Assembly (NCBI GenBank): GCA_013140985.1
Contig: JABFRU010000039.1
Coordinates: forward strand, 1 to 61,059
Origin: Chitinophagaceae bacterium
GTDB lineage: Bacteria; Bacteroidota; Bacteroidia; Chitinophagales; Chitinophagaceae
Length of the DNA: 61,059 nt
Reading direction: 5' to 3'
Below the pieces are notes generated by a model. That model was not told the origin of the DNA and searched no databases. It saw only the letters and a list, made by a program, of their open reading frames with translations. Below are positions 32,843 to 48,935 of this stretch, piece after piece. A program made the position numbers and the translations under genes. Within the stretch, counting starts at the first letter, position 1; every line of letters begins with the position of its first letter.

Positions 32843-33298
32843 ATGAAGAAGATCCTTTTACTGGCCGCTGCTTTTGTATTTACTCTTACTGTTTCTGCTC
32901 AAACTAAAGCGGAAGAGATTGCAAAATTCAATACCGAGTCATATGACTTTGGAAAAATAAAGCAAGGTGTTCCTGTTACGTATTATTTTGAAATCAAAAA
33001 TATAAGTAATAAGCCTATTATCGTCGAAAGTGCATCAGCCAGCTGTGGTTGCACAGTTCCTGAAAAACCAGAAGAACCAATTGAACCTGGCAAAACTGGT
33101 AAAATAAAGGTTCAATACAGCGCAGCTTCGGTGGCGCCTTTTACAAAAGATGTATTCATAAAACTTTCCGGTGTTAGCGAAACAAAAACATTACATATCA
33201 CAGGTGAGGTACTGACCGTTGAAGCCTATGATGCATATATGAAAGAAAAAGCCAATACCCCTCCGGCTAAAAACGACAAGGAGAAGCCAAAGAATTAA
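32843..33298 (+). CDS. DUF1573 exported protein, second copy
   Basis: 151 residues with a signal peptide ending VSAQ. It is clearly a paralogue of the gene before it: FGKIKQGVPVTYYFEIKNISN, SASCGCTVPEKPEEPIEPGKTGKIKV and TLHITGEV align along the whole domain, but the Trp after CGCTxPE is replaced. A charged Lys/Pro-rich tail of about 15 residues is extra. The pair probably arose by tandem duplication. A strong terminator follows at 33322-33349. Confidence 0.9.
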   Translation: MKKILLLAAAFVFTLTVSAQTKAEEIAKFNTESYDFGKIKQGVPVTYYFEIKNISNKPIIVESASASCGCTVPEKPEEPIEPGKTGKIKVQYSAASVAPFTKDVFIKLSGVSETKTLHITGEVLTVEAYDAYMKEKANTPPAKNDKEKPKN

Positions 33299-33321
33299 AG
33301 ATAGCTTTTAACCAAATACAG

Positions 33322-33349
33322 ATCCTCCCGCAAAACGGGAGGATTTTTT
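33322..33349 (+). terminator. Terminator of the DUF1573 pair
   Basis: Perfect 9-bp stem ATCCTCCCG/CGGGAGGAT with loop CAAAA and a T run, 23 bp past the stop codon. Confidence 0.92.
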
Positions 33350-33351
33350 AT

Positions 33352-33430
33352 AGCCCGCCCCAAACCCCTCCGAAAGAGGGGCTTTAGACTCCGCTATTTG
33401 GAGACTCTGATACTATACGAGGATACTAGT
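33352..33430. repeat. Hairpin-rich intergenic segment
   Basis: Two consecutive hairpins occur after the terminator: CCCCTC/GAGGGG, and CTCC/GGAG with flanking AGA/TCT. A GATACTA direct repeat also occurs twice. It lies between two plus-strand genes and may be a dispersed repeat. This is not provable from one copy. Confidence 0.35.
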
Positions 33431-33458
33431 TTAATCTTACTACCCTCAAACCAACTGC

Positions 33459-33923
33459 ATGAAAGAACAATTACCCGAAGCATGGCAGATCCATAATAAA
33501 ATGAACCTGCTGCTGATAGACAATATTACCGATGCCGGTATGCAAAAAACGTTGAGTGCAAGAGGTGGCCGTACCATTTACCAGCAACTCATACATATCC
33601 ATAATGTGCGGATACAATGGCTGGAGATCTGCGCTAAAGACATTTTTAAAAAATATAAAGTGCTGGATAAGGAAGCGGTTGTCAACAAGAAAGAATTGTG
33701 CAACGCCCTTGAAGGTTCTGCAAAAGGTATTGAAGAATTATTGAGCCGCAGCTGGGATGACGCTGGTAGAGTAAAAGGTTTTAAAAAAGGAGTAATCTCC
33801 TTTTTCGGTTATTTTATTTCACATGAGTCACATCACCGTGGTAATATTCTGGTAACCCTGAAACAATGCGGTGAAAAAATTCCCGATGCCGTTAAGCAGG
33901 GACTCTGGGAATGGGGAAAATGA
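33459..33923 (+). CDS. DinB-like four-helix metal-binding protein
   Basis: 154 residues, all helical. The likely metal ligands are in LIHIHNVRIQW near residue 47 and in SHESHHRGNI near residue 125, which is the HxxxH-type pattern of DinB/YfiT proteins. Members include thiol-dependent S-transferases and proteins of unknown function. No partner is suggested by context. It follows the hairpin-rich segment at 33352-33430. Confidence 0.8.
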   Translation: MKEQLPEAWQIHNKMNLLLIDNITDAGMQKTLSARGGRTIYQQLIHIHNVRIQWLEICAKDIFKKYKVLDKEAVVNKKELCNALEGSAKGIEELLSRSWDDAGRVKGFKKGVISFFGYFISHESHHRGNILVTLKQCGEKIPDAVKQGLWEWGK

Positions 33924-34097
33924 TTCATACCTATTACTCCCCTATTTCAGGTGAGACGTACTGTCATATTAAAGCAATATTATCTTCTTTTCTTTTTTCC
34001 ACAATCCTGTCGAAACAATTTGATTTTCACTGGGCCCTGTGCAAAAAAAAATCTTTGGCACAATTCTTTTAGCAAAAAGGATACAAAATCACTTTTT

Positions 34098-34427
34098 ATG
34101 ACCAATCAAGTAAGTGTAGTAAAGCCAGATGTGCTGAAAGAAAATATGTTGTCTATAAGTTCTTTCCTCAAAGAATCGTATTCCAGCGCAAGAAAGAATA
34201 TATATGAGGGGGTTAATTTTTTCAAAGACGAGTTTTCAGCTTTCTATAATAAAACAGGCAGCTATATTAATCAAATGATGTTGCCTGTCAACAATTTCCT
34301 GAAAGATATTGCACAAATAAATACAGAGTTGCAGCAGGAAGGATCAAAAAATTACCCTGTCCCGGGCCAGGCTCCTCTTGTACCTATAGATGAAGCATTA
34401 CAATCGCCAATGGAAGAAAATTATTAA
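34098..34427 (+). CDS. Small helical protein of unknown function
   Basis: 109 residues from the ATG at 34098, chosen because the upstream extension (from 33951) is Cys/Phe-rich and has no coding look. The protein is probably helical over residues 10-75 (ENMLSISSFLKESYSSARKNIYEGVNFFKDEF) and ends in a Pro-rich tail. It has no signal peptide, membrane segment or known motif. Its stop is immediately followed by the palindrome that fills the gap to the convergent SEDS-PBP gene. Confidence 0.6.
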   Translation: MTNQVSVVKPDVLKENMLSISSFLKESYSSARKNIYEGVNFFKDEFSAFYNKTGSYINQMMLPVNNFLKDIAQINTELQQEGSKNYPVPGQAPLVPIDEALQSPMEENY

Positions 34428-34517
34428 GAAGACGGGAAGCCGGGAAGACTGTAAGTCCGAAAGAGTAATCGTTCTGGCTTACGTTCTTTCCGTCTTCCGG
34501 ACTTTCTGACTTTTAGA
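34428..34517. repeat. Heptamer-built palindrome filling the gap between convergent genes
   Basis: 90 bp spanning exactly from one stop codon to the other. The left half is purine-rich (GAAGACGG, GGAAGCC, GGAAGAC type units), the right half is its imperfect complement (CTTTCCG, TCTTCCG, GACTTTC). It can fold into one long hairpin and may terminate transcription from both sides. Confidence 0.7.
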
Positions 34518-37500
34518 CTATTCTCCCATATATTTTTTGAATGCTGAAGATTGTTGCACATACTTTATCACTTCGGCCTGGAATTCTTCATTCTGTTTGG
34601 CAGGCCCGTTTTGTGAAGTAAAGTAAATAGTAATGAATTTATTCTTCCTGAAATTGAAATCCGGGTCTGTCAGTTTTTTTGAAGAGATGATGATGACAAA
34701 GAGTTTTGATTTTGCCTTTTCATCATTATCTCCTGTAGTCCCGGTCTTTGCATAATAATAATACGGTGCTCCGTCTTTCAGCATACGGCCCAGCCTTGCA
34801 GCAGTACCACTGAACAATGATTGTTTCATTCCTTCAAATACTTTTTCCCTTACAATAGAAAGATAGTTGCTGTATATAACTCCATTGTCTGTATAAAAAG
34901 GAGTGAACTCTTTTTCTTTTGCATACGGATTTAATGTCAATGAATAATTCCTGCTTTGGCTGACCAGTTTACCAAATGCATCCAGCATTTTTACAGGCGG
35001 CATCATGACCTGGCTGCTGCCTTTCACATGTCCACGAAAAGAAGACAAAAACATTTCATTAGGCCTGGCATGGTTCATCCCCGTTCCTTTTTGGTCGAAT
35101 AAAGCATACTCGGGTAAAATGAACCCTGATTTTTTATATGCATTCCTGAGTAAGGATGAATCATAGCCGGATGAAAATTTATCATAACTTCTTGACGCAG
35201 GATAGGTGGAGATACTATAGTTATTAAATAATCCGACCGATATAAATGAACTATCTGAACCAAAATTCACTTTACCATTAATATATCCCGGCCAGTTCTC
35301 AAATCCATTCAACCAATATTGTTTTCCATGATAATTAAAATAAGGCCAGTGAAAACCATTCGCCGGGTTTTGTGTAGCAAAATGACGGCTTAGAAGATCA
35401 GCCAGGCTTTGCTTTGAATACGAACCCAGCAGTAATAAGTTTGAATGATAATAATTATCCGAGTACCGCAGGTAATCAACCACATTATTTATCCTTCCAT
35501 TATTTTTTTCAAAATCATACTCCCCTACTTTTTCCCCGCCAAAGAATTCTTGCTTCTCAGAAAATCCTTCTGCTGCAAAAGCATCCCAGTCCATATTCAT
35601 TTGCGAAGCGATAGCTGAGAAGACAATGGGCTTTAATGTAGAACCCGGACCGGGATTCAATCTTAGCAGATTAATATTGCCGATCTGTTTTCTCAATAAG
35701 GATTGCGATACAAATCCGCCCTCTCCCTGTATCACCCTGTTAAATCCAATTTTATCATTCGGATCAGGACGAGCCATCTCTTTGATATGATCATTCATCG
35801 CTATCAGTCTGCCATTACCATCAGCTATGCAAATACCATACTCTGCCCCTCTTTTATAAGAAGTGTCTTTACCCAGCATTGCTTTGATCTTTACAGATAA
35901 GCTGTCTGTAATTTCTGCATCCACAGAAATAAAAGCATTCTGCCTTATTTCTCCCCTTGCCGTGTATTCAGAGGAGATACTTTCTGCAAAATTTCTTGCC
36001 CAGATAAAATCATTGGACATTGGGTACACATAGAACCGGCTACCATTGACAAAATAATTCTTCATGAAGGCGTCCGGTTGTATCACCAGTAGTTTTTCAT
36101 TGCCTGCATCATCGTTGATGCGTATCCTGTCAGGATTATTCAATAACAAAGTATCCTTCGGGCTCAAACTTGTCATCCTTCCCGCAGAATTCAATTGGAA
36201 TATCCTGTCTGATATATTGATCAAACAAAGTTGCTCATATAAATTCTCCGCATATTTCCTTTTAAAACCCAACTGCAAACCATCACTCAATAAAGTCGTT
36301 GGCTGATCCGTATAAGAGCTCATTCTTTTTTCCAATACACTATTGTTTGTCTTACTCCAAAAAGTGATATTGTAGTTACTTGTATCACTGAAAACATTGC
36401 CTGCCCAGTATTGCTGTAAATGCGGCGGCGGTTCCACCCTGAAATAATTATCATTGACGGCTAATTGCGGACGACCTGAATAAATATCGAGGTATAACAT
36501 CCTGCGCTGATCAAGATGTGCAGTAAAGCCATTTCTCAGATAAGATTCAATTTGTTTAAAGAAAAATTTTCCTGCATCATTGATATACCCGGAATTCAGT
36601 AAATGATGCACTGAATCCGTAAAGAGCTTATCTTTTTTCGCCAATGAAAGTTTGCGTGTTGCTTTTGATGTATCGAAATGATCCATGACAGGTTGTAACC
36701 GCAATTGGATATAAGAATCCATATTCTTTGCCAGGTCAGCCACCCGGAATTCTTTCTCTTTATTGTAAGCCGGCTTCGCCAGGAATAATAATAAACCCAA
36801 CCCTGTAAATACAATAGCACCCGGGATCATTTTTTTCCTGTTCGGGTATTGTTCCAGTGGTATCCTTTTAAATAAGAGGATGATTATTATGATCAGTACA
36901 GATGGGAAAAGAATGGATTGCTTGCTGAGAATACTTCCAAATGGAAGATCCTGCCCGAAGAAAATATACCGTCCCGTTGCGGCCAATATCACCAGCAATG
37001 CCGTGATGAGAAGATAATTCAGCAATGAAAATCCAGCGGTGATAGTCGGGTAATTATTATTGACCCTGTTGGTAAAATCGGGATAAAGTTTATAAAATGA
37101 GGCGAGTAAGGTTGTCGGGATTAATAACAACAACACATACAATAATACTGACCACTTACCATGTTCTGCAATAAAAAAACGACTGGCGACAAGATCAGTA
37201 GCCTGTGCATTATACCGGGCACCTTTATTCTGTGGCGCATGTGGCAATAAATTAAAACCGGCTTTTGTTACCGATGGATTATTTTTTTCATAGATAAAAG
37301 CATTGATGAACCACTGGTTTTGCGCCGCCCGGATAACCGGTTCGTATGTTTTTCCTTCTTCGTATGCCTGCTCAATAGCTTTATCAACCGGCATTGCCAT
37401 TACATCAATACGGTATTTTGTCATCGTTGCTTTGTCAAGTATTCTTTCCTTGGGGAAAAAAAGAAAGGCTGCCCCAAATAAGAATAAAGCTGATGCAACA

Positions 37501-39782
37501 CCGCTCAATGCTCTTCTTTTCGCTGATTGATAGAACAACAAGCGAACAATGACATAGGAAATAGCAATCGCAAAAAGTAAGTAACCAGTGATGTACAATG
37601 TCCCGGGTAATTCCAGTAAATAACGGAAGATATAAGGACCATACATGAGATTAACAGCGAATAACAACAGGTAAATAAACCCAAACAATCCAAACAGCGA
37701 GGCATTTCTTTTACTGCCTGCCGATAAACCCGCAATAGCATAATTGATGCACAGAAAAGCTTCGTTGAATAATAAAAAATTCAGAAAGATGATGGCAAAA
37801 CCAATATCAACAAAAGCAAATAACGCCAGCAGGTTTACGGATAATAGAACTTTTACCGGGTTATTGATAATAATATCAAGTGATTTACCAGTGCTGATAT
37901 CCCACCATTTCTTTTCAGCGGACGCAACCAGCGGTGAAAATTTATAAGAGATATAAATGAAAACAAAATAAATGAGCACCAATGCCAGTGCAAGGTGACG
38001 GCAAACAGCAGGATCAAAATGAGTGATGACAGCCAAAGCACCTGCTCCTATCAAAACCAATATCCAGGCCAGGAAGAAAACCATCCTTACGCCTCTTTTC
38101 CTGGTGATCCTTAAACGATCAATAACTCCACTTATCTTTTCTTCCTTCACAATATCATCGTCATCATAAGAAGGAGAATAGTGCTTATTGAATAGTGAAG
38201 CAATTCTTTTTCGGAAACTTGTATATAAATATTTCAGGAAACTGAACCCAATGATGATCCCGAGCAGTGATCCTGTAATAATAATGATGCCGAAATTCCA
38301 AAAACTATTCAATTGTTGCATGGAAGGAAGATCCATTCCTTCATAAGGAGGAAAACTTTTATATCGCCAGTATAAAAATAAACGGGTGGTTAATAATACA
38401 ATGGTGATGCATGATAAGAGTTGCCATACCCAGCTTAATTTATCTGCCCGCCTGAGCCATGAGGAAGCAAAAACAAGCAGGAAAAAGAAACCCAATACCC
38501 CAAAGACAAACAATTGCCATGTGCCTGCAGCCAATGTTCGGCTACCTAATTTCCAATTGAAAGAATTTTGTATAGAAAACAGCCAATGGATGCCGGGTGT
38601 TCTTGCCGGTAACAGCAACATATTATTGGAAACTGTTGCAATTGCTGATTGACCATTCAAATATTTTGCCTGCATTGCCAGGGCCGCATTTGACTTGTTC
38701 TTACCGTAACTTAATAAAACAGGTGAAAAACCAATAGCACTGTCTTCCCCCATTGCAGGAAAAAGAAATCCTTCACCGAAAACAGCTGGCATATTGACCA
38801 TATCCTTCTGATCAGCGACTAAAAATTTATTTACGCTATGCTTTGTCCAGTCGCTGCGATCCTCTTCTGCCAAAGGATATGAAACAGGATAGCGGTTGAG
38901 TAAAGCAAAACTATCCGCTCCGAGATAGTTTACACGAAAATGGTTCTTATTATTTTCTGCAATGCTGATACCCCAGGTGATACTTGTTTTATCCGGGATG
39001 ATGGCGCTAAAAGCGATTTGTTGTGGTTGAATTTCTTTTCCATCATACTGAACTATACCGGCATACCGAAACAAGCGGCCGGATAAAAAATATTTTAACT
39101 CCCTCTTCTCATTCGCTTTGTCCTGTAATAGTAAAACCTGCTTTAAAGCATTCATTAATTTTTCAGCAGTGTACCAGGGAGAATTAATGAAGGAAGTTTC
39201 ATCTTTAAATATATTCCAGGCGGATATGCCTTTCTTAATTGTTTTGCCTGTATTAAAAACAAGGCTGTTATTGATGCTTAATTCAAAGCTGCTATCTGCG
39301 GTGGTTTTCAGGTTTACTTTGAATGAATCCAATTGAAAAGAAACAGAATGACCAGCAGCTGCATAATTTGCCGATAGTAATTTATTTGTATTGCCTGATT
39401 GAATAAAGAACGGCTCCTCTGAATAAGATGAAGTAATACTTAATTGATTATTTTTTTTGCCTAGTTTAAAACTGTTATACAAACTATTTTTATAATTACT
39501 AGTATCAGTTCTCCCCAGTTCAATATTATTGGCCACCCGGAACCCATCGTGGCGGATAAAATGATGATCGAGGTTGCTGAATGTTTTTAACGACAGCGGC
39601 GCATGGATATTAAAATAAAGGAAGGCAAAACAAGCCGCACTGATCAGCAGGAATACATAAGGGAACCTTCTTTTTTGATAACGGTTCTTTGCAAAGCTTT
39701 TATAATACACCCACCCGTACAGCAGGAGCAAAACAATAGTGAATGAATAGAGAAATGTGAGGCTTGTCAAAAATTTCAACAT
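34518..39782 (-). CDS. Putative SEDS-type polymerase fused to penicillin-binding transpeptidase
   Basis: 1754 residues. TM1-2 (about 5-62) are followed by a periplasmic domain of about 330 residues. About 13 further membrane segments lie between residues 425 and 1015. Near 860 the sequence ATDLVASRFFIAEHGKW parallels the TDFIFSVLAEELG stretch of FtsW/RodA, and near 945 FFGQDLPFGSILSKQSIL parallels GLPLPFxSYGGSS. The C-terminal part (about 1270-1745) has YGICIADGNGRLIAM, then the active-site motif STLK (Ser1381, Lys1384, in PGSTLKP), SDN (1441-1443) and KTG (1679-1681), the three PBP motifs in order. I infer glycan polymerase and crosslinking activity in one chain; the SEDS assignment is weaker than the PBP one. 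Last gene of a four-gene operon. Confidence 0.72.
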   Translation of the reverse strand: MLKFLTSLTFLYSFTIVLLLLYGWVYYKSFAKNRYQKRRFPYVFLLISAACFAFLYFNIHAPLSLKTFSNLDHHFIRHDGFRVANNIELGRTDTSNYKNSLYNSFKLGKKNNQLSITSSYSEEPFFIQSGNTNKLLSANYAAAGHSVSFQLDSFKVNLKTTADSSFELSINNSLVFNTGKTIKKGISAWNIFKDETSFINSPWYTAEKLMNALKQVLLLQDKANEKRELKYFLSGRLFRYAGIVQYDGKEIQPQQIAFSAIIPDKTSITWGISIAENNKNHFRVNYLGADSFALLNRYPVSYPLAEEDRSDWTKHSVNKFLVADQKDMVNMPAVFGEGFLFPAMGEDSAIGFSPVLLSYGKNKSNAALAMQAKYLNGQSAIATVSNNMLLLPARTPGIHWLFSIQNSFNWKLGSRTLAAGTWQLFVFGVLGFFFLLVFASSWLRRADKLSWVWQLLSCITIVLLTTRLFLYWRYKSFPPYEGMDLPSMQQLNSFWNFGIIIITGSLLGIIIGFSFLKYLYTSFRKRIASLFNKHYSPSYDDDDIVKEEKISGVIDRLRITRKRGVRMVFFLAWILVLIGAGALAVITHFDPAVCRHLALALVLIYFVFIYISYKFSPLVASAEKKWWDISTGKSLDIIINNPVKVLLSVNLLALFAFVDIGFAIIFLNFLLFNEAFLCINYAIAGLSAGSKRNASLFGLFGFIYLLLFAVNLMYGPYIFRYLLELPGTLYITGYLLFAIAISYVIVRLLFYQSAKRRALSGVASALFLFGAAFLFFPKERILDKATMTKYRIDVMAMPVDKAIEQAYEEGKTYEPVIRAAQNQWFINAFIYEKNNPSVTKAGFNLLPHAPQNKGARYNAQATDLVASRFFIAEHGKWSVLLYVLLLLIPTTLLASFYKLYPDFTNRVNNNYPTITAGFSLLNYLLITALLVILAATGRYIFFGQDLPFGSILSKQSILFPSVLIIIIILLFKRIPLEQYPNRKKMIPGAIVFTGLGLLLFLAKPAYNKEKEFRVADLAKNMDSYIQLRLQPVMDHFDTSKATRKLSLAKKDKLFTDSVHHLLNSGYINDAGKFFFKQIESYLRNGFTAHLDQRRMLYLDIYSGRPQLAVNDNYFRVEPPPHLQQYWAGNVFSDTSNYNITFWSKTNNSVLEKRMSSYTDQPTTLLSDGLQLGFKRKYAENLYEQLCLINISDRIFQLNSAGRMTSLSPKDTLLLNNPDRIRINDDAGNEKLLVIQPDAFMKNYFVNGSRFYVYPMSNDFIWARNFAESISSEYTARGEIRQNAFISVDAEITDSLSVKIKAMLGKDTSYKRGAEYGICIADGNGRLIAMNDHIKEMARPDPNDKIGFNRVIQGEGGFVSQSLLRKQIGNINLLRLNPGPGSTLKPIVFSAIASQMNMDWDAFAAEGFSEKQEFFGGEKVGEYDFEKNNGRINNVVDYLRYSDNYYHSNLLLLGSYSKQSLADLLSRHFATQNPANGFHWPYFNYHGKQYWLNGFENWPGYINGKVNFGSDSSFISVGLFNNYSISTYPASRSYDKFSSGYDSSLLRNAYKKSGFILPEYALFDQKGTGMNHARPNEMFLSSFRGHVKGSSQVMMPPVKMLDAFGKLVSQSRNYSLTLNPYAKEKEFTPFYTDNGVIYSNYLSIVREKVFEGMKQSLFSGTAARLGRMLKDGAPYYYYAKTGTTGDNDEKAKSKLFVIIISSKKLTDPDFNFRKNKFITIYFTSQNGPAKQNEEFQAEVIKYVQQSSAFKKYMGE

Positions 39783-39789
39783 GCTTTGA

Positions 39790-40785
39790 TTATTGGTTAT
39801 TCAGGTTGGTTTCGTCAAATACAGGATAGGAAAGCTTTGTTACCCCTGTTTTCTCCAAAGCCATTTTTATCACAAGAGCTCTGCTGCCAAACTCAGTATT
39901 CAGTTTTTTCAATAAAACAGTATCAACACCATTTCCATTGGAAAAACCCTTTATCCGTTCCACCATTTTTCCGCCAATAGAGAGGTCATTGATGCGGAGA
40001 TAGAGGTATTCAATATATAATAATGAGAGTGAAACCAACAGATCCATTAATCGTTCCCTGTCATTTGCGCTGAGGCGGGCGGGACTGTTCTTATTGGCAT
40101 CTGTTATTCCCAATATTGGTTTTAAAAATTTCTCATAGGCATAACTGGCTACCATATTCTCTGTTTCCAATACTCCCTGTATAGCCAATGCCTCATCCTT
40201 TGATTTATCATAGCCCGGATAATTCTTCACTTTATATGCTTTTTGCATTCCATGCTTCAGCGAATCATATTCATGCTGGATACCGTTGTACTCTTTTATC
40301 ACACGACTCAATCCTTCATTCTCTTTTGACAGCTTATGCAACTCAGCATTCAGGTCCCCGATCTTTGTTTCCAGTAATTGTGGAGAAAGTTTTCCTTTTG
40401 TCACTCTTTCTTTTCCTGCTCTGGATGGCTGTGTTTCTTTATTCAATCCTTCAATTGTTTTATTGATCTTTTGCTGGTGATTCCAGATCATAAAAACAAC
40501 CAATCCAATCAAGCCTGTCAGAACGATCAAACCAATCAGCATATATTGAGAGTTATCGTCCTTTGTTACCACCGACGGTTCTTTCATTACCTGCGGCTCT
40601 TGCGAAGCACTATAAACTTTGATCAGGGAGTCAAGTTCCGCCCGGAGAATAATGGGGTTGCGGTTGCTTTTCTCCTGCACTGTCAATGTATCAGCGATGC
40701 GGATATGTTTTACTCCCGGCTGCTGTGCATCAAGACCTGCTGAAAAAATTATCGCCATTAAAAGAATCAATATCCTGTTACGCAT
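39790..40785 (-). CDS. Membrane-spanning coiled-coil protein of the SEDS-PBP operon
   Basis: 331 residues, family not recognised. A signal peptide (MRNRILILLMAIIFSAGLDA) precedes a short exported segment (about 21-80), one membrane segment (81-101) and a cytoplasmic part. Residues about 135-180 (LLETKIGDLNAELHKLSKENEG) form a coiled coil. The rest is helical. The topology links periplasm and cytoplasm, as MreC- or DivIC-like connectors do, but no homology is seen. It lies 9 bp after the ATPase gene and 7 bp before the SEDS-PBP gene. Confidence 0.8.
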   Translation of the reverse strand: MRNRILILLMAIIFSAGLDAQQPGVKHIRIADTLTVQEKSNRNPIILRAELDSLIKVYSASQEPQVMKEPSVVTKDDNSQYMLIGLIVLTGLIGLVVFMIWNHQQKINKTIEGLNKETQPSRAGKERVTKGKLSPQLLETKIGDLNAELHKLSKENEGLSRVIKEYNGIQHEYDSLKHGMQKAYKVKNYPGYDKSKDEALAIQGVLETENMVASYAYEKFLKPILGITDANKNSPARLSANDRERLMDLLVSLSLLYIEYLYLRINDLSIGGKMVERIKGFSNGNGVDTVLLKKLNTEFGSRALVIKMALEKTGVTKLSYPVFDETNLNNQ

Positions 40786-40794
40786 AACTTTTTT

Positions 40795-43173
40795 TTAGAA
40801 ATGAAAGAATTGAAGTATGCCTTGTCTTTTTCTGACCGGCTTCCTGGCAACTGTTTTCTTTTCTTTAGCTATATCTTCATAAACTGTATTCACTGAAGCC
40901 AGTTCACCGGAACAACCGGGAAACATTGAAATAGTTTTCATATCCTGTATCGCCGATTGATTTTCCGCTACGGATGTCAACAGGCTGTATAATGATCGCA
41001 CATCTTTCACCCGTTGATTTTCCATTAACCGGATATAAATATTATCACGGGTAAAATAAACATCGGCTGTTTTGTTCTTGAACGGTTTTAGTTCATGATG
41101 GTTTCGCCGCACAACAGAAGTGTTGTACAGAATATCATTGCCCGGTTCGATCTTGATGCCACGATAGAGATAAATATTATTATTCAACACATCATTGTTC
41201 CTCGACAACCCCTCCTTTTTATCAATAGGAATACCGGTAAAATCAGTGATCTTGTATGCCCCGCTGAATGCCCCATGAATTGCAATATTCTTATTGTTCA
41301 AAGCCCGGCCGGGTTGTACCATATGTACTGCAATGGCAGAGCCAAGCAATTCTTGCAATTCATTTTCCAATTTATTTTTCAGTTCATCAAAATAAAAAGC
41401 CCGCCCACTGAGCATCACCATTTTTATTCTCCGTTTAATATCCTTTGTCATCACATCTTTGATGCTTGACATGATACAATGAACGATACAATCGGTCGCT
41501 TTATGAATGATACCGGTGATCTCATCATCCCAGCGGATGTTACGTCCATTCAATATTGTTTCAGCATATTGCAACAAGGTAGAAGGATCTTTATAGAGAT
41601 TGCCGATCGTTCTTTCTGTACTCATTGAATTTTCCGCAATAGCTGTGAATTCAGTAAGGCCCACCGGTTGGTGATTCCTGAATCTCCTTTTCTGCAATTC
41701 CATCAACTGGATAAAATTCAGCACATCCGCAGTAAGGTCCTGGTTGAGGATATGCTGCTGAATAAAATCTTTTACAGAAATAGCATTGCTGCCGGGAATT
41801 GTTTTTAAGCTAAGAGTCAAAAAATCTTCGGTGAATCCATACAGCAATACATTTCCAGCTCCGGCAAAACCTGTTCTGAAAAAACTTGAATAGTTCTCGT
41901 TGTCATCTGCCAGCACCATGGAAATATCAGTCGTTCCTTTACCACAATCAATGACCAGGGCAATTTCTCCATTGGAAAGATCAACTTCATCGGCATGTGT
42001 TTGTTGATAGCCCATGAAAGCTGCATCGCTTTCGGAAATAGTTTCGTATTCGATAAATAACTTATTGGATGTAATGCCGAGAGAGTTCAACAAACGATCT
42101 GTTTGTCTTCTTAATTCATTCAGCAATTCAAAAACATCATGCTGGGTGTAAATATTCGGCACTAATAATGTTACAATAATGCCACCCTGCTGGAAGGACG
42201 GTTTAGTACTGATCATCAGTCTCAGCAATCTCAATAACACAGCGCTTATCAGTTCTTTTTTATGCGAACGGATACTGTAATCTTCTGTACGATCATCAAT
42301 AGAAAGCTGCAGGCTTTTTTCAATTCCGAGTTTTAGATTGGGAATGATCTCATAATCATTCTTGAAGCTGATCTCAGTCGCCGACACTTCTTTACGGGTA
42401 ATGAACATTCTTATTTCATCATCAGCAATATCACTGGTGAAATTGAAGGGAAAATTTTTTCGTTCATCCCTGCTCAATTTCCTTTTTACGGCGTAAAAAG
42501 AACGATAGAGCATCGGCTGACCATCTTCGTGGTTTAAAAAATCTCCCCGCTGCCTGTTCTTATATCCATCCTGCAGGTTGAGCCGGCTGATCACATTCTC
42601 CAATATATCATAAGGCACAACGGCTGATTGCGGCCCGCAATTCTTATAACCCACCTGGCTGGCCTCACTGCCAAAATCGATCACCACCCTGTTACATTCC
42701 CCTGATCGGACAATAGTGAATTGGAAAAGTCCGGAATACTTTTCTTCTTCAGAATGTTGCAATGTTATTTTGAGATTGAAAGGGAACTGTTCTGTTTTGT
42801 ATCTATAGCATCCAACCGATACTCTTTTCTGATCGGCTGAATAATCTAAACGGATACCTGTTTCTTCATCATAAAATGCTTCAACAGCAAATACAGAATT
42901 CTTTTTAATGATCAGTTCAAAATCATTTCCTTCTCTTTTTATCGAAATATGACATTCCCGGAGCGGAATATCCTGTCTCTCCGAAGGAGCCATCTGGTTA
43001 AGAACGATCTTCCCGGGATCTTCAATAGTAAGTAAAGGGGTCAACACTCTGTCTTCTGCATGAACAACGAAATTGAAATCAGTCTCAGCTTTTGTTTGTC
43101 CATGTTCATTTTCGAGTCTCGCTACAAAATAACGGTCGCTCCGGATCAGAACTGGTAAATAGTATAAAGCCAT
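40795..43173 (-). CDS. Hsp70/actin-fold ATPase with N-terminal beta domain
   Basis: 792 residues, soluble. Residues 1-160 are a beta-rich domain unlike Hsp70. The ATPase fold follows: phosphate-1 loop VVIDFGSEASQVGYK (163-177), an Hsp70-like stretch TLLVPNIYTQHDVFELLNELRR then EYETISESDAAFMGY (335-389), phosphate-2 loop ALVIDCGKGTTDISMV (405-420), a GFAGAGN turn (435-441), and an adenosine motif VMLSGRAFYFDEL (586-598). No Hsp70 substrate domain is visible, and the C-terminal tail is basic (ARKPVRKRQG). By context it may polymerise or switch in control of cell-wall synthesis; this is inference. It is 60 bp after the 274-residue gene. Confidence 0.8.
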   Translation of the reverse strand: MALYYLPVLIRSDRYFVARLENEHGQTKAETDFNFVVHAEDRVLTPLLTIEDPGKIVLNQMAPSERQDIPLRECHISIKREGNDFELIIKKNSVFAVEAFYDEETGIRLDYSADQKRVSVGCYRYKTEQFPFNLKITLQHSEEEKYSGLFQFTIVRSGECNRVVIDFGSEASQVGYKNCGPQSAVVPYDILENVISRLNLQDGYKNRQRGDFLNHEDGQPMLYRSFYAVKRKLSRDERKNFPFNFTSDIADDEIRMFITRKEVSATEISFKNDYEIIPNLKLGIEKSLQLSIDDRTEDYSIRSHKKELISAVLLRLLRLMISTKPSFQQGGIIVTLLVPNIYTQHDVFELLNELRRQTDRLLNSLGITSNKLFIEYETISESDAAFMGYQQTHADEVDLSNGEIALVIDCGKGTTDISMVLADDNENYSSFFRTGFAGAGNVLLYGFTEDFLTLSLKTIPGSNAISVKDFIQQHILNQDLTADVLNFIQLMELQKRRFRNHQPVGLTEFTAIAENSMSTERTIGNLYKDPSTLLQYAETILNGRNIRWDDEITGIIHKATDCIVHCIMSSIKDVMTKDIKRRIKMVMLSGRAFYFDELKNKLENELQELLGSAIAVHMVQPGRALNNKNIAIHGAFSGAYKITDFTGIPIDKKEGLSRNNDVLNNNIYLYRGIKIEPGNDILYNTSVVRRNHHELKPFKNKTADVYFTRDNIYIRLMENQRVKDVRSLYSLLTSVAENQSAIQDMKTISMFPGCSGELASVNTVYEDIAKEKKTVARKPVRKRQGILQFFHF

Positions 43174-43182
43174 TTGTATTTT

Positions 43183-43231
43183 GGGTTTTAGATTTTTGAT
43201 TTAGATCCCTGACTCCTGTTTCCCGACTCTC
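43183..43231. repeat. Heptamer-built element between operon genes 1 and 2
   Basis: Consecutive 7-nt units (TTTAGAT, TTTTGAT, then CCTGACT, CCCGACT types) fill most of the 60-bp gap between the 274- and 792-residue genes. No full palindrome is formed here. Confidence 0.6.
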
Positions 43232-43233
43232 CC

Positions 43234-44058
43234 TCACTCTCTGCAGAACCACCGGTCATTATAATTGCCTGAATTATTTTTTACTGCTGCTGAATAACAA
43301 AAATTAAATGCCTTTGCCCGGATGGATTCAAATGAAACCGAGATACTGTCTCCGCGATAAACGGCATCCCATGCTCTTGATGATTGTTTATCGTACCTGA
43401 TATTGCCAAAACGAAGCGTATCTGATACACTCACTTCTTTATTCCTCCATACCAATAATTTTACAACAGCATTATCAAGATTAAATCCTGTTGTATTATC
43501 AATTGATAGATTGATATTGAAAAAACGGGAACCTGCGCTGCTTGTTTCCTTTTCAGAATGCAGCTTCAGTTCTATTCGTTCCGGCCAAGTATTGCGCAGG
43601 CGAAGATTTGTTTTTGTACTCCTGTCAAGTGATGTGCCCCTGTTGGCCTCAATATCGCTGATCAGCGAATCAATATCCATCAACGGAACATTGTTGGGCC
43701 TTGTGGCAACAGTATTTACCGGGTCAGCTTTCTTCCATTTGATCTTTGTGAAATTGAACACAAGAAAAGCTCCTCCTACCAATGCAGCCAGGAATAAAAA
43801 TTTTTTCAGCCAGCTCTTTTTGCCATTTACTCTTACTGGAACAGTTTCGTGGATTGAAGCAGCGATCGCCACGTCTTTTTTCTTAATGGCGGGATACATT
43901 TTCCGGTAAGCGGCATAGCCTATCCATTCATTGCTGTTGAACAGCCATACCCGGCTTTTATCAGGTTGAGCAGTTGATCCGATGAGTTCTTCCAATTCCT
44001 CCTGCGACTGTACTTCTTTTACTCCACCCGATCCGTCGGTAAAAAGAAATTTTTCCAT
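43234..44058 (-). CDS. GYF_2-like/TM protein, first gene of the SEDS-PBP operon
   Basis: 274 residues. Residues 1-60 (MEKFLFTDGSGGVKEVQSQEELEELI, then RVWLFNSNEWIGYAAYRKMYP) resemble a GYF_2-type adapter fold; this is a weak assignment. One membrane segment lies at about 86-104, preceded by basic residues. The C-terminal part (about 130-274) is beta-rich and exported, with two Cys near the end (FCYSA and WFCRE) that could pair. It probably senses or connects across the inner membrane. The promoter region upstream (44059-44269) holds inverted repeats. Confidence 0.7.
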   Translation of the reverse strand: MEKFLFTDGSGGVKEVQSQEELEELIGSTAQPDKSRVWLFNSNEWIGYAAYRKMYPAIKKKDVAIAASIHETVPVRVNGKKSWLKKFLFLAALVGGAFLVFNFTKIKWKKADPVNTVATRPNNVPLMDIDSLISDIEANRGTSLDRSTKTNLRLRNTWPERIELKLHSEKETSSAGSRFFNINLSIDNTTGFNLDNAVVKLLVWRNKEVSVSDTLRFGNIRYDKQSSRAWDAVYRGDSISVSFESIRAKAFNFCYSAAVKNNSGNYNDRWFCRE

Positions 44059-44116
44059 GGCAGACGGTATAAACTTTGTTTAGATGTGATTAAGAGTAAA
44101 GAAGGTTCAAATAGGC

Positions 44117-44170
44117 ATTGCTGAATTGAAATGAAAAATTACAATGCTGTAAGTATTCAGCAATTGCTGA
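44117..44170 (-). promoter_or_regulatory. Operator-like repeats ATTGCTGAAT / ATTCAGCAAT / TCAGCAATTGCTGA
   Basis: A 10-bp inverted repeat (44117-44126 and 44155-44164) is joined to a perfect 14-bp palindrome (44157-44170), all built on the half-site CAGCAAT. It lies 60-110 bp upstream of the first gene of the SEDS-PBP operon. A dimeric regulator site is the simplest reading. Confidence 0.5.
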
Positions 44171-44269
44171 GAAAGGGTTACAACAATAATTTATGAATAT
44201 GGGGAGAGAAAAAATTCTTCTTATGATTTCCTAAACAAAAAATTGTGGAAGCATTTATACTAAAAGCAA

Positions 44270-45475
44270 TTATTCATCCACTGTCCAGTGAAATTCTTTC
44301 TGCAGGGCTGGCAATTTTCTCCAATCGAGAGCTTTGCCGGTTAGTTGATTAAGTCTGAAGGAGACTTGTAAGGTACTATCTGCTGCATTGTACTTCAGCC
44401 AAATTGGTTCATTTTTCATGTTGTAATCAACCAGGACATATTGTTGCTTACCGGTATCATACACCAATTTATAATCCACCATTTCATCATTGTCACCCTG
44501 GAAGATCATGTAATTGTCTTTATGAATAAAAAACCGTTTGACCGGGAATTTGTTTGGTTGTAATGTATCGGCGCCTGCAATAAATTGTTGTACCTCATAT
44601 GCTCCATGCATATAAGGACGTTTGGCTTTATCACCGTTAAAATTCCCTGAACGCATGAATGGATAAAAAGCTTCCAGCAAAATAATACCGGTAGCAAACC
44701 ATTTTAAAAACGTTGACAATAACCTGTTTTTAACCAACCGCTCTTTATTTACAAATTGTGTTACTGTTGCCGGTGTTTTAGAAAAAAAGAACTGAGATAA
44801 GCTTTTTACATAAGGCTCAAGAAGGTAAATGATATAAAAGATCAAAAGCAGGGAAAAGAGTTTGACTGAAATATCAAAACCAAAATTTACTGCCAGCACA
44901 TTGAGCATGATGAATAAACTCACTAATAAACCAATCAGCCGGGTTCGTTTAATCAATAAGAATAAAGCTGCAATGACTTCAATTGCTCCCAGGAAAACAT
45001 TGTAGAAATGAGAAGTCCCCATTGAGCTCCAGTACAAAAGATCCCGGGGCACTTTACCCGTTGGTGTGTAAAGCGTATTCGGTTCAGGTAAATAAAATTG
45101 GTTTTTAAAAATTTTATCCGCCCCATATTTCAGTAATTGCAAGGCGAGGTAATAACAAACAAGCAGGTAAATAAATTTTAAAACTCTATCCTTGTGTTTG
45201 CGCCAGGCTTTCAGTGTTGACAGGATCGCAGTAACCAGTATTGATAAAATAAAAAGGATCAATACCAGCACATACATAGCTCTTGTGTCGGAATAAACAT
45301 GTGTATCGCTAAGCTGTGTTCTGAAAACATTTTTTGAGACAAACCCGATAAGGTCGCCAAACAAAAAATCAGTGATGCTTAGCTGTTTCTTAAACAGGTT
45401 AAAAGGGACTGGAATGAATACAATACCTAAAAAAGCAAAAAAAGAAGCGGTGGAATAAACAAAACTTCTCCTCAT
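44270..45475 (-). CDS. DoxX-like polytopic membrane protein
   Basis: 401 residues with about seven membrane segments in the first 280 residues. The pattern TSHFYNVFLGAIEVIAALFLLIKRTRLIGLL resembles the DoxX/DoxD membrane family. The last about 110 residues (from KRPYMHGAYEVQQF) are soluble and beta-rich, probably periplasmic. Function is unknown. It follows the 203-residue gene by 5 bp and is on the same strand as the SEDS-PBP operon but separated from it by a promoter region. Confidence 0.65.
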   Translation of the reverse strand: MRRSFVYSTASFFAFLGIVFIPVPFNLFKKQLSITDFLFGDLIGFVSKNVFRTQLSDTHVYSDTRAMYVLVLILFILSILVTAILSTLKAWRKHKDRVLKFIYLLVCYYLALQLLKYGADKIFKNQFYLPEPNTLYTPTGKVPRDLLYWSSMGTSHFYNVFLGAIEVIAALFLLIKRTRLIGLLVSLFIMLNVLAVNFGFDISVKLFSLLLIFYIIYLLEPYVKSLSQFFFSKTPATVTQFVNKERLVKNRLLSTFLKWFATGIILLEAFYPFMRSGNFNGDKAKRPYMHGAYEVQQFIAGADTLQPNKFPVKRFFIHKDNYMIFQGDNDEMVDYKLVYDTGKQQYVLVDYNMKNEPIWLKYNAADSTLQVSFRLNQLTGKALDWRKLPALQKEFHWTVDE

Positions 45476-45480
45476 GTTTA

Positions 45481-46092
45481 TTACGCTTGCTGAAGGCGGG
45501 GCTTATGTAATTTCCAGGAAATGAATCCTCCGAGACCAGATAAAAATAATATCCCCCCTGCTATCATTGGCACAGATGAGCCTGCTTGCTTACTCTTATC
45601 ATCTCCTGTTACCAATGTTACCGGAATACTCACTTTAACCGGAAATGAATCGCAGCTTCTGTCATTGTCATATCCGACGAAGATCACTTTATCGATATTG
45701 TTTTTGAAATAATATTGCTGCTTGATTATCTTCCTGATACTGTCCAATGAATGTTTTTTTGAAAACAAAGGATGATGGTAGGCAATTTCTCTTCCCGCCC
45801 TCCATAAGCGGGGTTCGCTTTTTGGCTGGCGTTTATAAGTGCAATACTGACTCGTAACTAAATAGGCCAAACTATCTGAAACAAATATTACGCTGTCCAA
45901 CTGTGCATTCTTTATTTCCGGGGTCGGTGCCATACCGAAATTTGATCCGTTGTCAAATAGTTCGTTTGCCAATGCAATACTGAAATTTTCAACATTGCCG
46001 CTATGGCTTTTAAAAGCGATCTTTTTAGTTTGGGAATATCCGGCTGCATGTAGCAGGAAGATCGCAGATGCTGCAAGAAAAAGGGTTTTCAT
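45481..46092 (-). CDS. Exported protein with C-terminal membrane anchor, unknown function
   Basis: 203 residues. The signal peptide ends at GYSQ. The exported domain (about 20-165) has no known motif but contains paired Cys residues (CTYKR and DRSCDSF). The C-terminus (PMIAGGILFLSGLGGFISW, then KLHKPR) is a membrane anchor with a basic tail, similar in shape to sorted-protein tails. It precedes the DoxX-like gene by 5 bp, so they are probably partners. Confidence 0.65.
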   Translation of the reverse strand: MKTLFLAASAIFLLHAAGYSQTKKIAFKSHSGNVENFSIALANELFDNGSNFGMAPTPEIKNAQLDSVIFVSDSLAYLVTSQYCTYKRQPKSEPRLWRAGREIAYHHPLFSKKHSLDSIRKIIKQQYYFKNNIDKVIFVGYDNDRSCDSFPVKVSIPVTLVTGDDKSKQAGSSVPMIAGGILFLSGLGGFISWKLHKPRLQQA

Positions 46093-46231
46093 GCTGTTGG
46101 TTTTTGATGGCTATTTAAAGTTGGAAAATCAGGTCCGGCCTATTGACGCAGTGGGTTTGCCGGAGGTTGTATGAACCTTGCAACAATATTTTTTATATCA
46201 TTCCGTTGGTAGAAAAATAAAGCCACCATTG

Positions 46232-46927
46232 ATGTTCCGGGTTACACTGCACCTCTTATTTATAAGCCTTACTACAGCAAATGCTCAACAACCGGTTACT
46301 GATTCTTTTCCCCGGATAGCCACAGTAAATGTGACGGTCACCAATATGCAGCTAAAACCTCAGAAAGGCGAGGAAGTTATCTTCAAAGGTGAAAGGACCG
46401 ATACATTGATAAGAGGATTTTCCAATGCTGCGGGGAAAATTAAGATCATGCTCCCACCCGATGATAAATACACTGTCAGCCTTAAAGCCATATCCGATTC
46501 TACTAAATATGCTGTAGTATCCATTCCTGCCCTGGCAGAAGATGAATATTTTACCGATCCTTATACAGTTACCATAAAATTTGAACTGGCCCGTAAATAC
46601 CGTCTCGATAATGTACACTTCGATGTTGACAAAGCCACGCTGAGGCCAGATTCTTATGAACAACTGACCGACCTGTTTGAATACCTGCAGCGCCATCCTG
46701 AAATAAAAGTGGAGATCGCAGGACATACCGACAATACCGGCACCGATGCACATAATCTTAAATTGTCGCAGGACCGGGCCAATACTATCCGCAATTATTT
46801 ATTGAAAAAAGGAATAAAGCCAACACAGGTTACTGCCAAAGGTTATGGCGCCGGCGATCCTGTTGCTGATAATGGTACAGAAGAAGGAAGACAGTTGAAC
46901 AGGAGGACGGAAGTGAGGGTATTGTAA
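46232..46927 (+). CDS. OmpA-C peptidoglycan-binding protein
   Basis: 231 residues from the ATG at 46232, chosen because MFRVTLHLLFISLTTANAQ is a signal peptide; a TTG start at 46178 would precede it with unlikely sequence. Residues about 25-115 form a beta-sandwich. The OmpA C-terminal domain follows: VHFDVDKATLRPDSYEQL, EIAGHTDNTG, LSQDRANTIRNYLLKKGI and GRQLNRRTEVRVL. It should bind peptidoglycan diaminopimelate in the periplasm. The TPR gene follows after 52 bp. Confidence 0.9.
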   Translation: MFRVTLHLLFISLTTANAQQPVTDSFPRIATVNVTVTNMQLKPQKGEEVIFKGERTDTLIRGFSNAAGKIKIMLPPDDKYTVSLKAISDSTKYAVVSIPALAEDEYFTDPYTVTIKFELARKYRLDNVHFDVDKATLRPDSYEQLTDLFEYLQRHPEIKVEIAGHTDNTGTDAHNLKLSQDRANTIRNYLLKKGIKPTQVTAKGYGAGDPVADNGTEEGRQLNRRTEVRVL

Positions 46928-46979
46928 CAATGCATCTTTTTACCGGTAAAGATTATCTTTAGAAATATTACCGGTCAAC

Positions 46980-48779
46980 ATGAAAAAGATTATACTGCTT
47001 GCGGCGTATACTTTAGCGTCCTGCTTTTACATCTATGCTCAAACAGAGGATAAAGAATTTGCGGTCGCAGATTCTTTGGTGAACGCCGGGGAATATCAAA
47101 AAGCAATATCTCTTTTTAATACGCTTATCAGTAACTATGGTGAAAAGGAAAGATTCCTTACCGGCCGTGGCTTTGCGTATGTACAGACCAACGATATTGT
47201 AAGATCAAGAAAAGATTATAACCAGGCGCTTGTTATTAATCCTTCCTGCTCCAAATGCATTCTTAACCTGGCCATGCTGGATGTATTAGAACGTAATGTT
47301 TCCAGTGCATTTTCATTGATCGAAAAATATATCAAACTGGAACCGGCCGAAGGGCTCGGCTATGCCAAGCGGGGTGAGCTAAAATTTCAAACTGGTCAAT
47401 TCGATGGAGCTATCACCGATCTCAACAAGTCGCTGGAATTAGGTAACAAGTCCTTCTATGTTTATTTCTACCTGGCCATGGCACAGATGTATAAAGGAAA
47501 TAACAGCGAGGCTTTGAAAGCGATCAATGAAGCATTTAAACTGGAACCCGATGCAGAACTCGCTTATTTTATACGGGGAAGAATTTATGTGCAGATGGGT
47601 GATCCCCAATCTGCATTGAAGGATCTTTTTGCATGTCTTCAAAAGAATCCCAAGGCCAGTGAATACCATACGTATGCCGGTATAGCTTTATATAATTTAA
47701 ATGACTATGGTAAAGCGATGCAGGCTTTCAATGAATCATTGCGGCTCGACAGCACTGATCATGTTCCATATCAATACCGTTCTTACCTGCTTTATTCGCA
47801 GGCTTCTTTTACGAGGGCCTGCAAGGATAAAGAAAAAGCTTATTCATTGGCTTATGCCAGGGGTGATGAAAATGCCCTAAAACAAATACAGCAGGAGTTC
47901 ATTGAATACTGTGACCTTTCCAAAGCTTCGGGCCACTATCATAGTGGTGCTATTTTATTTGGCCAGGGAGATTTTGATAAAGCGAAGCAGGCATATAATA
48001 ATGGTCTTCGTCTTTTCCCGGATGATCCTCTATTGCTGGAAGGAAGAGGAAATACGGGGATCGCCACCGGGCAGTTCAGTGAAGCAATGGGCTTTTATCA
48101 TCAAAGTCTGCTGCATATAAAAAATATCAATCCCGATCTATTGACTAAAGAAACGTCAGCGGAAAAGAAAAAAGCCGCAGCCGATTTCTTTGTAGTACAG
48201 CTTTACGATAACATATCCTTTGCAAGTATGAACCTGCTCAAAATTGATTCCGCATTATTTTACGAGGGAAAAGCCATTGATATTTTAAAGAATAATGCTG
48301 CCATATCCCGGCGAGACAATATCTTGTCCCAGGCCCTTGTAAAACGAGCTACTATTTACATTGTACAAGACAACCGTGCCTCTGCCGCAGCTGATATCAG
48401 CGAAGCGTTAAAGTACGACCCAACAAACTCGTCGGCCTATATGGAAAGAGCCCGGGGTCTTATTCTGAAAAACACTATCGAAGGAAATATAAAAGATGAG
48501 AAGATCGCTTCTGTATTTCAACCCAACGATACAAAAAAGCCAGCCAGTTTTGAATACGCCACTACACCTATTAAAAACTGGGATCAAAAAGAAGTAGAAG
48601 CCGCATTGGAAGATCTTAATAAAGCGATCGGCTATGCTCCCCAAAACAGGGACGCTTATATGCTCCGGGCCCAGGCAAAAATACTTTTGAAGAAAAATGA
48701 CCCTTGCCCAGATATCCTGCAGGCAAAAAAATTAGGGATTGCCGATGCTGCACAGCAACTGAACACAGCTTGTAATTAA
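46980..48779 (+). CDS. Exported TPR-repeat protein
   Basis: 599 residues with a signal peptide (ending FYIYAQ). At least eight TPR-like helix pairs are visible (ALVINPSCSKCILNLAMLD, YAKRGELKFQTGQFDGAITDLNKSLELG, AMQAFNESLRLDS, AKQAYNNGLRLFPDDPLLLEGRGN). The last unit (ALEDLNKAIGYAPQNRDAYMLRAQAKILL) ends with a Cys-containing helix. It is a scaffold protein of the periplasm or outer membrane; partners are unknown. It is on the same strand as and close to the OmpA-type gene. Confidence 0.85.
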   Translation: MKKIILLAAYTLASCFYIYAQTEDKEFAVADSLVNAGEYQKAISLFNTLISNYGEKERFLTGRGFAYVQTNDIVRSRKDYNQALVINPSCSKCILNLAMLDVLERNVSSAFSLIEKYIKLEPAEGLGYAKRGELKFQTGQFDGAITDLNKSLELGNKSFYVYFYLAMAQMYKGNNSEALKAINEAFKLEPDAELAYFIRGRIYVQMGDPQSALKDLFACLQKNPKASEYHTYAGIALYNLNDYGKAMQAFNESLRLDSTDHVPYQYRSYLLYSQASFTRACKDKEKAYSLAYARGDENALKQIQQEFIEYCDLSKASGHYHSGAILFGQGDFDKAKQAYNNGLRLFPDDPLLLEGRGNTGIATGQFSEAMGFYHQSLLHIKNINPDLLTKETSAEKKKAAADFFVVQLYDNISFASMNLLKIDSALFYEGKAIDILKNNAAISRRDNILSQALVKRATIYIVQDNRASAAADISEALKYDPTNSSAYMERARGLILKNTIEGNIKDEKIASVFQPNDTKKPASFEYATTPIKNWDQKEVEAALEDLNKAIGYAPQNRDAYMLRAQAKILLKKNDPCPDILQAKKLGIADAAQQLNTACN

Positions 48780-48912
48780 GATGAAGCCATGAAAACGGGA
48801 CGTACCACCGGTATACATCGGGGTGCTGCGAATTTTTGCTGAATAGAATTCCTGCAGCACAAGAGTGCGACGCAAGGAACGATGCCATGAAATACCGAAG
48901 CTGGTTTCATAA
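48780..48912. repeat. Hairpin with flanking direct repeats after the TPR gene
   Basis: Stem GTGCTGC-GAATT (48823-48834) pairs with AATTC-GCAGCAC (48847-48860, with a CT bulge). It is flanked by direct repeats GAAGCCATGAAA (48783) and GATGCCATGAAA (48881). The structure is MITE-like or REP-like; only one copy is in the window. Confidence 0.4.
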
Positions 48913-48923
48913 TCATTGCCCCT

Positions 48924-48931
48924 TACCTTTG
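48924..48931 (+). promoter_or_regulatory. TACCTTTG -7 element, 4 nt from the aminotransferase ATG
   Basis: Exact TAnnTTTG match followed by CTTC and then ATG at 48936. It predicts a leaderless mRNA. Confidence 0.7.
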
Positions 48932-48935
48932 CTTC

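Follow-up and report, generated by a model that had tools for sequence, protein, structure and literature searches.

To our knowledge, the machines that pair a SEDS glycan polymerase with a class B penicillin-binding protein (bPBP) are positioned by MreB, by FtsZ/FtsA or by sporulation factors. Natural SEDS-PBP fusions within a single open reading frame (ORF) are stated to exist in PMC10449877, which cites the Rhodococcus RHA1 genome, and engineered E. coli RodA-PBP2 fusions are reported there and in PMC6207328; as natural fusions are on record, the fusion alone is therefore not new. In this study, we describe such a fusion together with an ATPase partner, encoded in a 61,059-nucleotide stretch of a Chitinophagaceae bacterium (assembly GCA_013140985.1, contig JABFRU010000039.1), called here the window. 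Four minus-strand ORFs, all starting with ATG and separated by gaps of 60, 9 and 7 bp, encode, in order, a 274-aa protein, a 792-aa ATPase, a 331-aa connector and the 1754-aa fusion, and ORF calling confirmed the coordinates at which a first-pass annotation had placed them. We read the operon as an accessory peptidoglycan synthase, composed of a SEDS polymerase and a class B transpeptidase, which would be switched by the ATPase and induced under certain conditions beside the elongasome and divisome, and we hold this reading with moderate confidence. As far as our searches go, a SEDS-bPBP synthase with an unusual Hsp70-fold ATPase partner is undescribed: no description of the ATPase-linked family was found in open-access full text, so the novelty claimed by the annotation holds for that family and not for the fusion itself.

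All four proteins stay below the curated cut-offs of Pfam and NCBIfam, the best fitting weak Pfam matches being Actin for the 792-aa protein (0.0043) and Transpeptidase for the 1754-aa protein (0.076). Searches of the PDB sequences, whether with single proteins or with profiles, turned up nothing convincing (best, PBP1B with the transpeptidase profile, E 0.0066). Hydropathy places one transmembrane (TM) segment in each of the 274-aa and 331-aa proteins, none in the ATPase and many in the fusion (34518..39782, minus strand). A profile of fusion residues 421-1015 (41 sequences) was aligned by hhalign with FtsW/RodA (6 sequences) at a probability of 91.0-95.3% in three runs with differing column choices (93.7%; 95.3%, score 69.1; 91.0%, score 58.2), against control scores of at most 23.7 for 60 column shuffles, 17.3-17.6 for reversed alignments and 12.8-14.5 for unrelated pairs. 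This profile homology argues that the protein carries a SEDS domain related to FtsW/RodA. The AlphaFold2 model of residues 1-1110 (pLDDT 83.7, pTM 0.84, 60-row alignment) contains ten TM-length helices in 565-971, in a topology fitting SEDS, and one more at 982-1001 fitting a PBP membrane anchor. We place the putative 10-TM domain at residues ~560-975 (36858..38105), rather than at the 430-1015 of the annotation, because hhalign puts TM6-TM7 at ~732-775, and this span agrees with a natural gene split described below; with that placement, a candidate SEDS 'PDLG' turn at D659-I-G661 was dropped. D863 is aligned by hhalign with the SEDS catalytic aspartate of the extracellular TM7-TM8 loop and is kept in 66 of 66 sequences, and the GQDxPxxS stretch (943-950) falls on the SEDS TGxxLPxxS loop; R791, G854, Q860, E873 and G943-Q-D are likewise invariant. 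We take D262 of RodA and D297 of FtsW to be equivalent positions. The D262A exchange is reported to abolish polymerase activity of RodA (PMC6207328) and D297A to be toxic/dominant-negative in FtsW (PMC8765783).

The remainder of the fusion (residues 976-1754; 34518..36857) would comprise the PBP anchor, a pedestal-like region assigned by position and a transpeptidase domain (~1290-1754) with the motifs STLK (1381-1384), SDN (1441-1443) and KTG (1679-1681). S1381, K1384, S1441, N1443 and K1679 are kept in all 66 sequences, and T1680 and G1681 in 65. At E<=0.1, Pfam Transpeptidase (PF00905) is recognised in 11 of 24 relatives, the strongest match reaching 2.3e-7, and the profile of this domain aligned by hhalign with four PBPs of the same genome at a score of 44.6, 60 shuffles giving at most 27.2. 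At the other end, a predicted N-terminal module (residues 1-530; 38193..39782) consists of a TM hairpin (8-31, 40-59), a beta-rich domain of ~350 residues and three TM helices (419-530), and the loop charges fit a periplasmic location for this domain and for the transpeptidase. In Terrimonas ginsenosidimutans and Sphingobacteriales 44-61 (L163, L164), the module has a gene of its own, the split falling at its border with the SEDS domain in both loci.

The 792-aa ATPase (40795..43173, minus strand) has an N-terminal beta domain (~1-160) followed by a predicted fold of the Hsp70 nucleotide-binding domain (NBD)/actin superfamily. The three motifs noticed in the annotation were located as phosphate-1 (DFGSEAS, 166-172), phosphate-2 (DCGKGTTD, 409-416; DxGKGTTD) and adenosine (GR, 590-591), and are conserved, together with K281 and E381, across relatives in alignments of 23 and 60 sequences; D166, G168, K281, E381, D409, G411, K412, G413, T414, D416 and G590 are invariant in all 60. 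This invariance is consistent with a working nucleotide site, and the residues presumably include the equivalents of the Hsp70 catalytic Lys and Glu, a mapping made by eye. The AlphaFold2 model (pLDDT 82.8, pTM 0.86) gave 568 Foldseek matches in the PDB at E<=0.001, the best 50 of which were all chains of the Hsp70 family (Hsp70/BiP), many of them NBDs; those listed had E values of 1e-11 to 3e-10, a probability of 1.00 and a target TM-score of up to 0.62. By this model, the fold is nearest to the Hsp70 NBD, not to MreB or FtsA, and therefore the steering by an actin-fold protein that the annotation had borrowed from MreB and FtsA is no longer the natural inference. Pfam Hsp70 has no match in the window ATPase at E<=1, nor in 23 members at E<=0.1, no C-terminal Hsp70 substrate-binding domain was recognised, and weak Pfam MreB and Actin matches occur in 4 and 6 of the 23 members, respectively. 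Some carriers also hold ~860-aa proteins matching PF06723, which were considered as second copies of the ATPase and rejected, the three inspected being DnaK-type by eye with no synthase nearby. L200, L201 and L202 are DnaK-like proteins of 830-860 aa, each adjoining a gene of 100-120 aa (GrpE-like by eye), and are unrelated to the module on account of their DnaK type, this neighbour and the missing synthase.

Searches at increasing taxonomic breadth associate the two proteins consistently. Among 294 genomes of the family, 28 have the ATPase, and the 1754-aa protein is present in 26 of these and in no others; in the remaining two ATPase carriers, G194 and G269, the synthase is made of two neighbouring genes (590-595 and 1187-1188 aa), so that both components are present in 28 of 28 carriers. 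In G309 each is in two pieces, counted unmended, which may reflect an assembly error. An even sample of the order showed clear presence in 2 of 119 genomes, a third match (G059) being a 108-residue stretch (2e-5) without the operon, and a phylum sample contained the module in 2 of 395, the ATPase profile giving additional weak matches in seven genomes that are DnaK-like or FtsA-like by eye. Synthase-first searches covered these three samples. When 84,980 species genomes were scanned for two ATPase peptide patterns, an approach blind to distant ATPase copies and to synthases lacking the ATPase, 74 loci emerged, in Chitinophagales, Cytophagales (Emticicia, Persicitalea, Dyadobacter), Flavobacteriales, Saprospiraceae, Bacteroidales (many of them Prevotellaceae and other gut or rumen metagenome-assembled genomes, MAGs) and one Fibrobacter. 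In 65 of the 74, the locus has a fused synthase of >1500 aa encoded on the strand of the ATPase, and in two (L163, L164) the split form; in L152 the synthase is adjacent on the opposite strand, in L113, L133, L136, L151 and L159 it is outside the fetched flank and elsewhere in the genome, and L110 is a contig fragment of the MAG of L109, which has both genes. The whole-genome synthase search covered seven locus genomes and was positive in all seven. As all 74 loci are thus accounted for, every ATPase carrier found here also has the synthase. Pairwise distances of ATPase and synthase are correlated (mirror-tree r 0.95 for 52 paired loci; 0.85 for the 1208 pairs below 40% identity), and therefore fit a unit inherited together. 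The module is real and co-conserved, and is an accessory element in scattered Bacteroidota.

The small partners vary from one architecture to another, as judged from ORFs called by a simple longest-ORF script that missed some small genes, such as the connector of L135. In type A, all 12 window-type loci compared, the window among them, share the order GYF-like gene, ATPase, coiled-coil TM connector and SEDS-PBP; a 13th carrier (G246) lies on two contig fragments and is outside this count. The 274-aa protein (43234..44058, minus strand), identified by ORF calling and hydropathy, has its TM segment at 82-106, between a cytoplasmic N-terminal domain that is GYF_2-like by eye and a periplasmic beta-type domain, also by eye; it occurs in all 12 loci (alignment of 10), and its profile hits only L091-L110, with no GYF-like gene matched outside window-type loci. 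It matches no Pfam family at E<=1, and the GYF likeness of the annotation thus stays an eye reading, the TM segment being confirmed. The 331-aa connector (39790..40785, minus strand), assigned from hydropathy, alignment and its position between ATPase and synthase, is the TM coiled-coil protein that the annotation had listed third: it has a signal peptide (by eye), a short periplasmic part, a TM segment at 78-104, a cytoplasmic coiled coil and a helical domain, with 12-17% identity to the connectors outside type A. Type B (13 loci, L074-L086) contains ATPase, connector (clustered in 11 of 13), synthase, a ~150-aa TM protein, F7 (12 of 13), and one or more copies of the TM protein F3 (13 of 13), whose periplasmic parts are SH3-like by eye; two F3 copies were scanned and gave no Pfam match above cut-off. 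Type C (2 genomes) has a histidine kinase, a LytTR regulator, ATPase, connector, N-terminal module gene, SEDS-PBP gene and two small genes. In the other loci, ATPase and synthase are constant, with one or two ORFs of ~175 to 1265 aa between them. The universal parts are therefore the ATPase and SEDS-PBP only; the co-conservation of the four genes, which the annotation had proposed to test, is found for this pair, the GYF-like gene being confined to window-type loci and the connector being absent from three loci (L141, L144, L147).

In the model that we favour, the single chain would combine a SEDS glycan polymerase with a class B transpeptidase, tethered as in RodA-PBP2, and the N-terminal periplasmic module would sense or dock. 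The cytoplasmic Hsp70-fold ATPase would serve as an ATP-dependent switch, acting in most types through the single-pass coiled-coil connector, and small single-pass periplasmic partners (GYF-like here, F7 and F3 elsewhere) may add sensing. The synthase would come into play under envelope stress, after wall damage or during differentiation, beside the ordinary elongasome and divisome. We infer from sequences and models the formation of a complex, peptidoglycan as the product, the gating by ATP and the role in stress.

The link to stress comes from the neighbouring genes, among which family scans covered 64 of the 133 same-run ones in L111-L164. In the three Spirosomataceae loci tested, a protein with sigma-70 region 4 is encoded two genes upstream of the ATPase; those of L139 and L120 exceed the Pfam cut-off, and that of L123 matches weakly. 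The type C locus L164 has a histidine kinase and a LytTR regulator upstream. The Ter stress systems were reportedly treated by Anantharaman in 2012, and TerD-family genes are found in 6 of the 64 scanned neighbours, lying downstream in the synthase's own gene run in at least three loci (L121, L124, L137; Prevotellaceae/Phocaeicola MAGs). In a Cytophagales MAG, a gene just downstream of the module (L119:12245-13828) codes for a caspase-like peptidase joined to an FGE-sulfatase domain. A vWA-like family of 600-860 aa, secreted or TM by eye, lies upstream of the ATPase in 8 of 74 loci (L125, L146, L149, L154, L157, L159, L160, L162), with a MIDAS stretch detected by pattern in five copies, that of L154 imperfect. 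Together, the sigma factors, TerD and vWA-like genes suggest a stress-linked, induced use.

A number of observations weigh against the reading of the operon as an accessory peptidoglycan synthase. Foldseek of the multi-domain model of residues 1-1110 found no match at E<=0.001, and among the 50 matches listed the highest probability, that of FtsW (8p1u), was 0.66 (E 0.35, target TM-score 0.33). The Pfam SEDS model PF01098 matches none of 24 members at E<=0.1, and a PF01098 search of the window genome did not return the window protein. By hhalign, only ~TM6-TM10 of SEDS align and the N-terminal helices TM1-4 do not; the window protein remains under the Pfam Transpeptidase cut-off (12.6 vs 22.1 bits), and the transpeptidase profile reaches a probability of only 52-57% against the four PBPs of its own genome. 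In L141, L144 and L147 there is no ORF of at least 70 aa between ATPase and synthase and hence no connector. Finally, few neighbours underlie the stress link, and in the three vWA-like copies scanned singly there was no Pfam vWA, nor any other Pfam family over cut-off. On the SEDS fold, which the annotation had proposed to check on a predicted structure, the structural comparison was thus not significant, the profile comparison indicated homology to FtsW/RodA, and we weigh the sequence evidence higher.

Some of these points would also be expected if the SEDS-like domain polymerised a glycan not derived from lipid II, capsule-like or part of an appendage, and the PBP attached or crosslinked it, the product not being ordinary peptidoglycan. 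The sequence is far from FtsW/RodA, as the missing PF01098 matches and the restriction of the profile alignment to ~TM6-TM10 illustrate, and when the SEDS family profile was run against the 395 phylum genomes, one of the five weak outside matches (E 6e-5 to 8e-4) was a membrane protein that is Wzy-like by eye (L184), in which no Pfam family was found. The remaining four, however, were PF01098 proteins, that is, genuine FtsW/RodA. Moreover, serine D,D-transpeptidase motifs imply D-Ala-D-Ala peptide stems, i.e., peptidoglycan precursors, and such precursors are therefore implied by motifs kept in 65-66 of 66 sequences. We consider this alternative improbable.

In the clade of the window, 10 of the 12 type A loci contain the flanking gene F9 and 10 contain F10, and two of the loci stop at contig ends. 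In two genus-mates, G397 and G362, the flanking genes are present and the operon is absent; in a third (G081), the flanking gene used had no close match, which leaves this genome uninformative. The ORFs of G397 jump from the gene at 33951 of the window to that at 48936, and those of G362 from 32843 to 48936, so both lack the whole stretch from the operon to the TPR gene at 46980, and the neighbouring genes of the OmpA and TPR families may have been gained or lost together with the operon. Two histories fit, namely an early gain, preceding the type A clade and followed by losses, or repeated gain at one place. In an ATPase tree obtained by a quick method, with many long branches, Fibrobacter and a Prevotellaceae MAG form one group (support 100) and Emticicia joins the type B copies of Chitinophagaceae, and these cross-taxon groupings suggest horizontal transfer of the module. 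The Fibrobacter copy (L130, a MAG from horse faeces) is, by record title, the only one outside Bacteroidota, and its grouping suggests transfer in the gut. Two types, A (L107) and C (L164), occur in Terrimonas. L092 and L125, which share the whole-genome shotgun prefix LNFJ01, are of differing types (type A and a vWA-associated type), and one MAG thus appears to hold two modules.

The patchy distribution, the TerD neighbours, the caspase/FGE-sulfatase gene beside L119 and the vWA-like family of eight loci could also be read as signs of a conflict or defence system, in which the ATPase and the vWA, TerD or caspase partners sense attack and the synthase alters the envelope against the invader. 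TerD, vWA and caspase partners are themes of the conflict systems treated in the main text of PMC7159879, and single matches to pAgo, a type III restriction-modification system and PDC-S02 were found by PADLOC among the 64 neighbours. Nevertheless, PADLOC models matched none of six window proteins, and each of the best 25 of 107 PADLOC families matched one of the 64 neighbours only; in the clade of the window, the same chromosomal genes flank the module in most loci, and FtsW, RodA and transpeptidase do not figure in that main text. Defence was consequently rejected as the principal explanation, on the PADLOC results and the shared chromosomal neighbours, and we regard it as quite unlikely.

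The accessory synthase would operate alongside normal growth machinery. The annotation had asked for a standard mreB/rodA/pbp2 set elsewhere in the genome, and contig C48 carries MreB together with PBP2- and RodA-type genes side by side, contig C1 carries FtsI-, FtsW- and FtsA-type genes, and further large PBPs, one each on C18 and C56, and a transpeptidase-domain ORF of 276 aa on C7 were found, all named from family match, length and gene order. The module is thus distinct from elongasome and divisome, as the annotation had it. Canonical MreB (>400 bits) is also present in all 27 other carriers, which therefore points to an extra SEDS-bPBP system and not a replacement of the elongasome, an option that we rejected. 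Least probable of all is that the module is simply a duplicated rod or septal machine, with a diverged elongasome paralogue serving routine growth, since, although the catalytic pair is the same and several SEDS-bPBP sets per genome are common, canonical MreB persists in those 27 carriers, the predicted ATPase fold is not that of MreB or FtsA, and the module was not found in 266 of 294 family genomes and 393 of the 395 of the phylum sample, with an empty site in two genus-mates, and is therefore not needed for routine growth in the group.

A broader proposal, which we put forward tentatively and rate as possible rather than probable, is that these operons represent a third class of SEDS-bPBP machine: an ATP-gated single chain with an Hsp70-fold ATPase in place of a filament, mobile across Bacteroidota/Fibrobacterota, whose induction by attack or envelope stress would run through sigma-factor, TerD or vWA modules. 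The module may be a separately controlled wall-building machine on top of the normal growth machinery. If so, a chaperone-type switch could gate wall synthesis, a compact natural SEDS-PBP unit would be available for structural work, and a wall pathway would have been overlooked by the Pfam SEDS model in gut and soil Bacteroidota.

Compared with Hsp70/DnaK, the ATPase shares the NBD fold and the phosphate-1, phosphate-2 and adenosine motifs, but has the extra N-terminal beta domain, lacks a Pfam Hsp70 match and is found with a wall synthase. With MreB/FtsA it shares the ATPase superfamily and, in some members, the weak Pfam matches, whereas the best 50 of its 568 structural matches are all of the Hsp70 family and the genome has its canonical MreB and FtsA-like genes apart from the module. 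The ternary conflict systems, as presented in the main text of PMC7159879, and the Ter stress systems resemble the module in the TerD, vWA-like and caspase partners near some copies; no MoxR or GTPase core was seen near the module (MoxR was not among the best 25 of 65 Pfam families for the 64 neighbours, which include one AAA protein), and no SEDS-PBP synthase is described in that text. Natural and engineered SEDS-PBP fusions likewise hold both enzymes in one chain, with SEDS first in the engineered ones, but as described in PMC10449877 and PMC6207328 they come without an Hsp70-like ATPase, an N-terminal module or a Bacteroidota family. From the MreB-RodA-PBP2 elongasome the module differs in that its ATPase partner is not MreB, the canonical MreB being separate on C48. 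The closest likeness in domain order is to RodA-PBP2 and FtsW-FtsI, with which it shares, at the level of distant profile homology, a SEDS domain with its catalytic aspartate followed by a bPBP anchor, a pedestal-like region and the SxxK, SxN and KTG motifs, and from which it is set apart by its single polypeptide, its extra N-terminal 5-TM periplasmic module, its far diverged sequence, its Hsp70-fold partner ATPase and its rare, accessory distribution.

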